This document shows, one piece after another, positions 34,001 through 40,000 of a DNA stretch of 64,000 nt. How positions within the stretch are numbered: position 1 is the stretch's first letter; each line of letters starts with the position of its first letter. The DNA lies in the NCBI RefSeq assembly GCF_040054535.1, contig NC_090792.1, positions 1,445,001-1,509,000 on the forward strand, written 5' to 3'. This stretch comes from Antennarius striatus (taxonomy: Eukaryota > Chordata > Actinopteri > Lophiiformes > Antennariidae). Below the pieces are notes generated by a model, which saw nothing but the letters and a program-made list of their open reading frames with translations, did not search any database and was not told the DNA's origin. The position numbers and the translations under genes were made by a program.

Positions 34001-37000
34001 TGCTGGTCCAGAAGACTCATCAACAGCTGGAACCACTGGAGCTCAGACTCCAAATGTAAAAATCACAAGAACGTGAACTTGCCATGGTTTCTATGACAAC
34101 TGTGAGGTTTCCTTTCCCATCAGTTAGAGCTACATAACTTCCACCCTGTGTCAAATGTCCAACGGTCTGCAGGTAGGTCCATCCTGGCTGAGTGAACTGT
34201 GTGGTGTGGGCTAGAAGGAATACAGAACACCATTAAATCATCCTCAGGATTAAAGAGCAGGTCTGAACCCAACACTCTGACTCCATGTCACTCCATGTTA
34301 AATGAATGTCTTGGGTTCCTCTTGGTGTGAGGAACCTTATTACTCATCCTGCTTAGGATGTGAAATAAGGTTCTTCAGCAGACAATTCTGAATGTGTATG
34401 TTGTAGATAATAGCATTTATAATCATATATATTTATGATCATATATATATTGCATATATTTATATTTATTTATTCAGTTTATTTTCTTCTTTCCAGGCAT
34501 GTTATTACAACAGATTTTACTTTCATCAGTGTGAGACATCAGCAACTTCACCCGAAAAGAAAAAAAAAAGGGTTGATGGGTAGAAGCCATTGGCTTGTGA
34601 AATAATAATTATATATGTGTATATATAAATATATTTATATATACACATATTATAATTATTTACATTAATATGTATATGTAAATATAAATATGTATATATT
34701 TATATTTACATTATATTAGAATAAATGTACATATAAATATAAATTACATATAAATATAAATTATATATAATTTTATATTTATAGATCTTTTATATTTATT
34801 TATATTTATATATATTATATATTATTTATATTTACATTTATCATAATATAGTAAAGTATGTTTAGTGAGCAGACTAACTCAATCAGCTTTTGTTGAAAGC
34901 GTAGTTTGGAACATAAAAAGATTTTCAAAACCAAATGCCAGCTTTTTTAAGAAGCACCGGTTTTTCTGTGTCATGTTCCAGGATCTAATGCAGACCTGTG
35001 ATCCAGATAGGAGACTCCACCACATAGTTGCCGCTCCAAGGCTCCTCTGCAGTCATTAAGCCATCCCTGCCGAATGGCAGATCCTCGTAGTAGCTCGCCA
35101 CCAGGTTCCAGGAGATGGTGCTGAAGCAGGAATCACAGTTTTGTGAAACATGTAAATCCAGATTCCAAGTCAAACATATTATCCTTATAATTAAAAAAAA
35201 TCAGCTGAATAGCTGAAACTAAATGGGTACATTTACAAAAGACAAAATTCCACAGTTCATGAAAAACACCCATTTTTTTTCCTTACGCAGTCATGAAACC
35301 GTTGACGTAGTTCTGGTTGAGGATGCGAGCCCAGCAGCCTCCCCCTGTGTCGCTGTTGAAGGTGCTGTAGTCTTCCGATGACCACAGCTTCTTCCCAGTC
35401 TTCAAGGCCTCTGTCACCGTGTGGGTGCCTGGGTAATGGGCCCTGAACGGCACACGACACACGTTCAGCACGCTCAACTAAGGTCCAATGAGGACAAATA
35501 GATGGAAACTAAAGCAATCATTCATAAATATCTGGCTCATTGTTTTTCATTCTGCAGTGAACACACATAAAGCACACACCAACATGTTACATACGAAGCA
35601 CATCTTCACATGTAATCAGATTACTGGTGGAAAACGATGACAAATGCGGGGAAGTGTTCTTCTGTCTCATTTGTCATCACAATCAAAACATTAAAGGCTT
35701 TTAGGTGCATCTTAAAGTGTGGAAAATACTGTAATTTTCCCAAAAAAATGACAGTGCCCCTTATTATCCAGTGCGATTTATAGTGCGGAAAATACTGTAA
35801 ATGGATGGAGAAACACAAATCTGGGCCTAGTATGTCTGATTATACGTCTGCTATTCTTTTTGATCAAACTTTATTTACTTACAGAATGAAAAAAACAATA
35901 CTTGCATGTTGCATAAAAAATGCATACAAAAGAAAATTTAAGTGGCAACAATCCAGGGTTAGAGGTAGAGAGATTAACTGTGTTTGAGATCAAATGGGAT
36001 CATTACTCTCTATCCTAAGCAGCATGTGTATTAAGGTTCCTTATTGTTAGTTGACTAAAACCAGCAGATGGATGCTAAACCATAAAGTAGTGTTCTCTCA
36101 CACCATTTCCTTCAGTCCTCAGGAACACACAAGGAGAAACCTGTTTGATAATATTAGCATCAGTCAAGCACCGCAAAGACATTTTCAACCACTTCCATAA
36201 CATTTTCAATCAGATCTAAATTTTTAATTACACAACTCTTTTTACATATTCATCTTATCTAAAATATATTTACAATATTTTGCCCCATGTCAGCTCTGAT
36301 TGGCTCAAGCCAAAAAGATTCAGACTAGAATATATTGTGGACCAGCTTTCCATCAGTGTGGGAGGTCATGCGATTCTTGTGTTGTAGATACACAAACACA
36401 CCCAGGCGTGTTATTATTGTTAAGGCTGCACACAAGAGTATCACCACCACGATAAGGTAACATCAGAGAAGGTCCCTACAGATGCATAGAGGGGGTCCTA
36501 CCCTATCACATTCACTGCTCTGCTGAGCTCTGGGTCTAGCAGCACAAACAGGGTAATGGGCTCCCACAGGTTGTCACTGGCTATGATCCCGACCCCCTCC
36601 AGACCGCTCTTATCCAGCGTGTACCGCAGCAGCTGAGACCGCCGGTCAGTCCCACAGAAACAGAGAGCAGAGGACACACACACTCACAAGTTCATCTGAA
36701 GAGCAAATGTTTTTTCTACAAACAGGCAAAAACCTTTATTAAAAAGAAAAAAAAGATCTCAATGCTTAATTTATGTGTCGGCTACACACAATCAGGAAGA
36801 ATTGCAGAATTACAAATGAATTCACAGCTCTTGTTCTTAAATTCTATTTCCTTCTCGAGTTCTCGGGGTTTCTAAATTCAGTATTTGTGCAGGTGGAGTA
36901 TAATTTACTCATCAGAGTTTGTACAGTACAATGTAAGACTGCTTTTGAGAATACTGTGACAAACAGGAGTCCCAACAATGAGCTCATTGTACTTTCCTTT

Positions 37001-40000
37001 TGGTTTTCTTTTGCTTGGGACTGTTAACCTAGTCTAAATAAAACATTTTACTAAATAAACGTTGTATGACACGCTAGAGATTTCAAGAGTGATTGAGTTA
37101 GGAATTTCTTCATTTCCAGAATCATAGGTATTCTATCCTGGATTATGTGTTTACTTAAATGCGTCATACTTTTATTTATATTTCAATTTGCTCTTGTAAG
37201 ACGTGTAGGTCTGCTGCTGACAGACTTGTCTGTGTTTTGTTGGTTATACAAACAGTACGTCTTTAATGTGGACGGACCCGTTTATTATCAATGACAGGTT
37301 ATGTCTTACTGACGACAGATAATGAATGCTGAAAGTAGCAGCAGGATGATGTCATTAATAGATGTGTTACCCTTCGACAGCATCAGGACTGGTTCAAACT
37401 GACTAAGTTACAACAATAAGTTGTTGTACAATAAGTTAACTGTGGGTTTTGACTATTTACCAGAATTATCCATCTTTTACATGATTGGATAAAGCTGAAC
37501 TAGCCAGCGATTGTGTGCACTTTGGCAAACTGTCTCTTTAAGCACAAATAACTTGGTTTCTACAGATGTATAATCCATTTAGATCATGTAGTGGCCTCAA
37601 TATACAACTAACCTACATATTTAGGATTCGCTTCATGAATGCACAAATCCTAAACTACACTCGGTGACGTTACTGCACCAGGGATTACTGTCGGAGCTCT
37701 AGTGACACCTGTCGCAGAGGAATTTGTCAAAATAAACATATAGAGAGTTTAAAAGAGTAAAAATAACACGACTCATGAAGTAGTGTCAAAACAGATCAGA
37801 AAAACAGCCACAAACATTGAGCTATGTCCAGCCCACGAGTCTTAACAGAATGAAGCCCAGCTGAACAGATGGGGGCACACCCCTATGCAGCCTGACTGTC
37901 ACACGTTCAGTCAATCAGTTCTCTGAGATCACACCTTTCCATCAGAACTGAATTGCCTTTGGCGTCCAATGAGTTATTACGCAATAAAAGACGGAATTTC
38001 TTTCAATCTACTGCTGTGAGTTTGTGCCGACTGTACTTACCCAACCACCTCTACAGAATCATTAAGGTGAGGGTCAATGATCATAGACTGAGAGATGCTC
38101 CAGTTGCCATCTGCTGCAACGATGCCAACGCCAGATAGACCAACTTTATCCAGTGTGTTTCGAAGCACCTTGGCAACAACAACAAGACATGCTCTCAGAG
38201 ATAACAATCTGGAATCGTCTGAAGAGTCTCTCATGTGGGACACAACTCAGTGTTGGTGGCTGTTCTCATCCATCAAAACACAGTTTAGCCAAAGATTAGC
38301 CATCATTTAAAGTGATCAGTCAAGTTGTCAAGAGTGTCAGACAATAGAATTACCTTGATGTATTTGATGTCAAAGTTTCGCTCATTCCAAATCTACAATG
38401 ACGAAAGCAAATTTTAGTTACACCACTAATTACTTGTTGATAATTTATGCAGGAGGTAGAAATGCGGCTAAATGTTTCAGTTCCACACATTTTCCCAAAT
38501 ATGTCAGAGTAAGGTTTCATTTCAATCAACCCAGTTTCTTAGAAATGTCATTAATTTGATGTGCCTGCTGGTTATGATAACACTGTCAAGTGAATTAGAT
38601 TAATTTCTCTAACCAGGTGCTAATGTTTAAGCTACAGGAGAATTGTTGTAAATATATATTTGAATAAATATGTTTATAAAACATATACTAGCCTACTGAT
38701 AATATCTGTGGGAAAAAAATGTGTTTAAGGAAAATGAAGGTATCAACTCAGGTTCTTGGTCTAGTTCCAGTCTCATGTTCAATAATGTACGTTGATAACA
38801 TTAACGTTGGAACTTAGCCCCGCCGCTCATGGTAACTCGCTGAATGACCGGCGGTCAAAGTCAATTGCAGTGAGTAATGGTGAGCTTTTACTTTGTATTC
38901 TGACCACATTTTCCAAATTGCCCCTTCAAACTGAATAAATATTGAAGTCTTAATTCTCGCGCACATTGCATGTCTGAAAGAAAGCAAATGTGTATGCACC
39001 CCAATATACTGAATGTCCAGGTCATGATACTGCTTAGCTCCAAGGATCCAGTTCACCACATATGCTGCAGTGATGTCTGGGAAGTCATACGGCCAGTTCT
39101 TACCCCGGCCCACCCAGCCAGGAAACGCCCAGGGCAAGCCTGCAGGAAGGTACAAAGCAACACACACACGCATGGCAGGAGATAAAAAGAGTGCCACCAA
39201 CATGTTGTCTTCGCAAAAGTAACTGTGTTCAGTTTGAACGTCTGTCCAGTCACTTTACATTTTCCCATGAGCCCTTGCTCTGTATGGAGTAAGCAATGCA
39301 AATATGAAGCAAGTCTTTAGCGTAGCAAACATGTACCTTTCCATAACGCCGTTTAAACTTGTCGTGTCAAACCTTTACCAGCAGGTCAGCAGGATTACTT
39401 ATAGCTAGTTTTTGGACTAACTAAGTTTTAAACTAACTAATTTCTGAACTGACCGACTAACTAACCCATGAGGTTTTGAACAAATTAGGTTCTCAACTAA
39501 CAAGGTTTTGAATTATTATTAACATAAACGTTGTATTTATATTCATGTTTGTTATTATGTAATAATTATTTATGTTGTTTAGATTTACACTGTTTACATT
39601 CATAGTACACCATATGTTTTACACCTATCCCGCTTCATGTGCTTTCAAATGCCCCTTGGGGACTTATATAGTTTTCTGAATTGAATTGCACCTTTCACAA
39701 AATTCAGTAACAAAGTTAGCAGTAAAGCAAATACACACACAATTAAACAAAACTATTAAAGTAAAAAAAAAGAATACATAGGCAGAAACAAAACACCAAT
39801 AAAAACATAAAATACCACATGCTATCCAAGAACCTGTCTATCAGCAAAACTCAATCCTTGCACACGGCTACTACTGCGTATTCTGTTATTAATTTTGGGC
39901 TGCACAAACTTTTTTTTCAAGCGCATCCCAGGGATGCACTACTTTCTTGAAGTAAAATGAACTCTGTAATCAGGGAGAAGCCTTGAATGCAAAGACACTT

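Follow-up and report, generated by a model that had tools for sequence, protein, structure and literature searches.

A candidate pair of mutually exclusive exon 7 versions in the galactocerebrosidase gene galc of Antennarius striatus

The galc gene and its two versions of exon 7

In Krabbe disease the enzyme that fails is GALC, which acts on a myelin lipid. A 64,000-nucleotide (nt) stretch of the Antennarius striatus genome (contig NC_090792.1, positions 1,445,001 to 1,509,000; hereafter the window, in whose coordinates all positions are given) carried an intact galc gene on its minus strand, encoding a GH59 galactocerebrosidase. Its coding span (31020..42191, read from 42191 to 31020) was assembled as 17 exon positions, with exon 7 present in two versions, here called 7a and 7b. 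With either version the spliced reading frame ran uninterrupted from the ATG to a stop codon common to both, yielding 667 amino acids for a 7a-only transcript and 668 for a 7b-only transcript. The Pfam domains PF02057, PF17387 and PF21708 scored above cut-off in both isoforms, and the match to mouse GALC (3zr5) spanned mouse residues 12-652 of 656, with phmmer scores of 995 bits for the 7b isoform and 975 bits for the 7a isoform. Catalytic, central and lectin domains were present together with the catalytic glutamate pair, and the NE and SED motifs lined up with those of mouse, placing the product in GH59; a search of NCBIfam gave only a sub-threshold endo-glucanase match (15 bits, cut-off 700). 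Acceptors throughout the gene were AG and donors GT, apart from the donor of exon 10 (position 34083, minus strand, CATG/gcaagt), which was GC, a rare splice-site type.

Exon 7a (38041..38168, minus strand; 128 nt, 42 residues plus (G)) and exon 7b (36502..36632, minus strand; 131 nt, 43 residues plus (G)) are separated by an intron of 1408 nt and share their splicing partners. On the 5' side this is exon 6 (38354..38392, minus strand), a 39-nt exon encoding IWNER...YIK that carries the acid/base glutamate, and on the 3' side exon 8 (35287..35442, minus strand), which carries the nucleophile glutamate. Both versions have AG acceptors and GT donors, start in phase 0 and end in phase 2, and they are the two open exons that a sequence-only reading of the window had placed at 38168-38041 and 36632-36502 with these same phases. 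That reading had also calculated that taking both would add 259 nt (1 mod 3) and shift the frame, and the assembled transcript agreed: with 7a and 7b joined, translation ended roughly 17 codons after the start of 7b. The frame is also shifted in a transcript with neither version.

An mRNA that is frameshifted and stops early is expected to undergo nonsense-mediated decay. As transcripts with both or neither exon 7 would be out of frame, meet an early stop and be removed by this route, exclusivity would be enforced at the protein level, and a single galc pre-mRNA would yield either GALC-7a or GALC-7b. The proposal that the two exons must be mutually exclusive thus stands insofar as productive output needs exactly one of them; the frame arithmetic makes the joined product only non-productive. 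Among the features that define mutually exclusive exons in PMC5740500, 7a and 7b are internal neighbours of similar sequence and length, lie in the same frame and are each open when used alone, and their joint inclusion falls under the frame-shift branch of that definition. The match in phase and frame, homology limited to exon 7, a length difference of one codon and the signals of selection described below together indicate that exon 7 was probably duplicated in tandem within galc, its two copies serving as mutually exclusive alternatives. The same arithmetic could serve a poison exon, in which joined 7a-7b mRNA would be frameshifted and decayed to lower galc output, protein diversity being secondary. 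The stop in 7b, with exons 8-17 still downstream, would suit that role, but a poison exon requires neither GH59-like sequence nor a phase-preserving one-codon indel, and as both copies keep these features we regard it as quite improbable.

Homology, age and coding constraint of the two exons

The two versions are clearly related, as tblastn of 7b against 7a gave E = 9.8e-10, with E about 1e-9 whichever copy was the query, and mouse exon 7 matched both (63%, E 7.5e-13 for 7b; 44%, E 1.5e-6 for 7a). When all 17 exon positions were compared with the 64-kb window by tblastn, a second copy was found for exon 7 only. The best off-target match of any other galc exon had an E of 0.035, the shortest exons (13-25 amino acids) having little power, and a third copy of exon 7 in the window was rejected, as none was found. 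Identical residues numbered 21 of 42 aligned, confirming an estimate by eye that about half of them differ, and the lengths differed by exactly one codon. Identity to mouse was 26/43 for 7b and 18/42 for 7a.

Alternatively, the extra exon might stem from misassembly or from gene conversion by a second galc paralogue. A donor is conceivable, as zebrafish galca and galcb are described in the available parts of two reviews, which mention no alternative exons (PMC7218095, PMC10002607). Against this, tblastn found no second exon 6 or exon 8 in the window (exon 6 comprising only 13 amino acids), and the flanks of the two exons showed no similarity beyond chance (best E 0.80), making this origin very improbable. 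Within the exons, the best blastn match between the 7a and 7b regions covered only 25 nt (E 0.23). As nothing outside the exons matched better than E 0.80, the duplication does not appear to be recent, and a recent origin was also rejected on the NG86 estimates of divergence (dN 0.49, dS 2.46), in which dS is near saturation.

Substitutions between 7a and 7b were unevenly spread over the codon, with 18, 10 and 29 differences of 42 at the first, second and third positions (Fisher test of second against third, p = 6e-5). The ratio of nonsynonymous to synonymous proportions (pN/pS) was 0.50 (bootstrap 0.31-0.75), and the proportion of the 2000 replicates with a value of 1 or higher was 0.0005. 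We also simulated neutral evolution with 20,000 runs per setting, in which a copy that combined an open frame and AG and GT sites with identity to 7b at no fewer than 21 residues arose in 0.12% of runs at 0.6 substitutions per site and in none at 0.9 or 1.2. The GH59 profile PF02057 scored the whole isoform at 398.9 bits with 7a and 390.6 bits with 7b (the profile's training sequences not being visible), and the cassette alone at 26.6 for 7a, 18.3 for 7b and 26.5 for mouse. The higher score of the 7a isoform argues against decay of 7a. Codon-position pattern, pN/pS, simulation and profile together suggest that 7a and 7b have both evolved as coding sequence. The sequence-only reading had taken the open frames as evidence of selection on two isoforms; what the divergence pattern suggests is selection on coding sequence, the two spliced isoforms being candidates.

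The competing explanation is that one exon 7 is unused in protein, a relic still open on its way to loss, and several results lean towards it and away from a functional pair. The pair is known from the genomic DNA of one fish alone. At lower divergence the simulated outcome was commoner, its share rising to 4.5% at 0.4 substitutions per site and 28% at 0.2, and an open frame alone survived in 23% of neutral runs even at 0.9. The simulation evolved 7b rather than a reconstructed ancestor and did so without indels, and in the pairwise test change is not assignable to either branch. The second-position differences reject neutral decay of 7a only if its branch holds at least about 30% of the divergence (P 0.25 at 20%, 0.022 at 30%). 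The acceptor of 7b is also weak, as described below. Conversely, from 0.6 substitutions per site upwards the joint retention of an open frame, splice dinucleotides and half identity is very improbable under neutrality, and neither copy looks decayed, 7a outscoring 7b on GH59 and 7b being the closer to mouse. We consider a relic unlikely.

Splice sites and a candidate RNA stem

Splice sites were scored with a crude matrix, which gave 8.9 and 6.2 for the donors of 7a and 7b and 3.1 and -3.4 for their acceptors. By this matrix the 7b acceptor was the lowest of those of exons 2-17, and 58% of the 651 AGs in the gene scored as well or better, which counts against the pair. The AG-free zone upstream measured 21 nt for 7a and 48 nt for 7b. 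Two familiar means of preventing joint splicing were considered: U2/U12 incompatibility was rejected, as none of the assembled donors matched the U12 consensus used, and steric hindrance, in which donor and branch point lie less than about 50 nt apart, is unlikely given the 1408-nt intron and the short AG-free zone upstream of 7b. According to the available text of PMC7969005, calcium sensitivity of OGDH, likewise a metabolic enzyme, is tuned by the mutually exclusive exons 4a/4b, exclusivity being achieved through distant branch points; with its short AG-free zones, galc shows no apparent sign of that device.

An inverted repeat flanks exon 7a, with an upstream arm in intron 6-7a (38238..38264, minus strand; 27 nt, 85% complementary) that pairs with a downstream arm in intron 7a-7b (37803..37829, minus strand). 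Only two dust-filtered blastn inverted repeats in the window had a spacing of 100-700 nt, of which it was the better, and the minimum-energy fold of the region contained the stem. The extended duplex around 7a reached -59.6 kcal/mol, stronger than any of 12 shuffle pairs (the best of these at -46.0). Pairing of intron 7a-7b with intron 7b-8 (-48.3) was barely beyond the best of 12 shuffles (-47.8), and that of intron 6-7a with intron 7b-8 was weaker than the shuffle mean. A docking/selector model needs one docking site and at least two competing selectors, and here we found one strong stem, around 7a. The candidate stem may loop out 7a and so favour 7b, a role that we put forward as doubtful. 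Three results weaken it: the local fold was just 1.7 standard deviations better than shuffles (z -1.72, a value equalled by 3 of 100 shuffles), pairing of the same or greater strength occurred at 11 of 240 random positions of the window, and an unfiltered scan returned 234 inverted repeats of at least 22 nt within 700 nt, the 25 longest of which appeared by eye to be of low complexity where their sequence was printed.

Short stretches that look alike by eye, resembling dispersed repeats, were also seen in introns 7b-8 (about 35690-35800) and 16-17 (about 31480-31660).

The exchanged segment in the enzyme and among known exon pairs

Anchored on E182 and E258, exon 7 corresponds to residues 192-235 of mouse GALC. 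The description of this segment as lying between the two catalytic glutamates holds along the sequence, but the segment contains no listed pocket residue and E215 within it is on the surface. Twelve residues define the GALC pocket in the available text of PMC13187500, of which exon 7 contains none (0/12), and a swap of the catalytic pocket was rejected on this ground. A hint at catalysis in the sequence-only reading was not upheld, the portions of the structural literature available pointing instead to the saposin-A side of GALC. An exchange of 7a and 7b would leave both catalytic glutamates and the galactose-pocket residues given in the literature untouched and would rebuild a surface loop around mouse E215, beside the saposin-A docking face. 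From the barrel fold and a bacterial relative modelled by AlphaFold, exon 7 appears to encode a helix in part, then the strand that follows the acid/base strand, and lastly a loop and helix. That model was poor (mean predicted local distance difference test score, pLDDT, 51; predicted template modelling score 0.37), and only its helix 152-164 and strand 171-176 were used (block pLDDT 45-76), the start of exon 7 falling inside the helix.

The loop differs between the versions. Exon 7b has the mouse-like DNLWEP with an equivalent of E215, and in 7a this becomes DGNWS, one residue shorter, with the E215 equivalent deleted or replaced. Two extra sequons for N-glycosylation occur only in the 7a isoform, at positions 214 (NWS) and 228 (NDS), 7b and mouse being without them there, so that 7a would add two potential N-glycans. 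In the passages available, E215 lies on the GALC surface away from the active site (PMC4949656), and correct trafficking and retained activity are described for the Krabbe variant E215K and for P302R, both of which adjoin the saposin A (SapA) interface without direct contact (PMC5764952). The E215K variant alters the same surface residue as 7a, and reportedly it still folds, traffics and is active (PMC4949656, PMC5764952). Loss of E215, the 7a sequons and this literature lead us to propose, tentatively and as a possibility within the mutually exclusive pair, that GALC-7a and GALC-7b perform the same chemistry and differ in saposin engagement or lysosomal sorting. Weighing against this, the extra sequons of 7a are possibly unused, and E215K is a charge reversal, whereas 7a loses the residue, changes its neighbours and adds a sequon. 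The E215K cleavage product is moreover reduced, though detectable, in one passage of PMC4949656, and processing is wild-type-like in another.

The loop was also compared with four bacterial GH59 relatives (L001-L004), taken from a genome-contig scan (19 matches to the pattern, 3 of them encoding a relative and each of these in a bacterial metagenome-assembled genome) and one plasmid record; two viral-contig scans gave none. Like 7a, all four lacked the extra residue that 7b and mouse carry after the loop tryptophan, this position being followed by one residue and then Ile, Val or Trp, with Tyr in place of the tryptophan in one relative. They had extra residues before the tryptophan, and these inserted columns were left out of a hand alignment of 44 columns, in which 5 sites grouped 7a and 7b against mouse, 10 (one of them a gap) grouped 7b and mouse against 7a, and 2 grouped 7a and mouse. 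By local score, L001 and L004 aligned best with 7a, and L002 and L003 with mouse. The Kitasatospora relative L004 (1348-3804) carries no annotation beyond that of a ricin-type beta-trefoil lectin domain protein. One could imagine an ancient pair in which the spacing that follows the loop tryptophan is ancestral in 7a and 7b is the vertebrate-type loop, with one more residue there, mammals having kept only 7b from a two-exon ancestor and fish running two GALC forms, with and without the E215 saposin-A face, chosen by the RNA stem around 7a, but we think this full scenario unlikely.

Enzymes in which a swapped cassette alters substrate handling or regulation include KHK (exon 3a/3c), MAPK8/9/10 (exon 6a/6b) and PKM (exons 9/10). 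They share with galc the swap of a single cassette; their folds differ and the exons are unrelated. The tandem-duplicated mutually exclusive exons of vertebrates described in the accessible parts of PMC5740500 and PMC9741552 resemble those of galc in being homologous internal neighbours of similar length and the same phase, and joint inclusion is frame-shifting in 377 (60%) of 629 human clusters. The catalogues differ in having splice-junction proof, the galc pair being known from genomic sequence; GALC is not named in the main text of either paper. Titles and abstract openings of open-licence PMC papers reported no mutually exclusive pair in galc, though databases may already contain predicted isoforms, and this limited check gave no contrary report to the statement that no such pair is known in mammalian GALC. 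The two versions of galc exon 7 are a candidate, and a well-supported one, for a mutually exclusive pair that would be new but of a familiar kind, at an informative position in a gene known from medicine. If both exons are used, fish would provide a natural case in which GALC chemistry is uncoupled from saposin presentation or lysosomal sorting, and this at the site of a Krabbe mutation for which a mechanism has only been proposed. Isoform-aware design may then be needed in fish models of the disease, and a lysosomal hydrolase would join the enzymes tuned by mutually exclusive splicing.

Elsewhere in the window, two AIG1/GIMAP-type GTPase open reading frames (PF04548, 218 and 219 bits) lay directly upstream of galc on the same strand (47191-48186 and 43390-44220, minus). 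An open reading frame matching an amino-acid permease (PF13520, 115 bits) was found at 57904-58692 on the minus strand, and reverse-transcriptase open reading frames (PF00078), presumably from retrotransposons, at 20467-22875 and 4865-5998, also on the minus strand.

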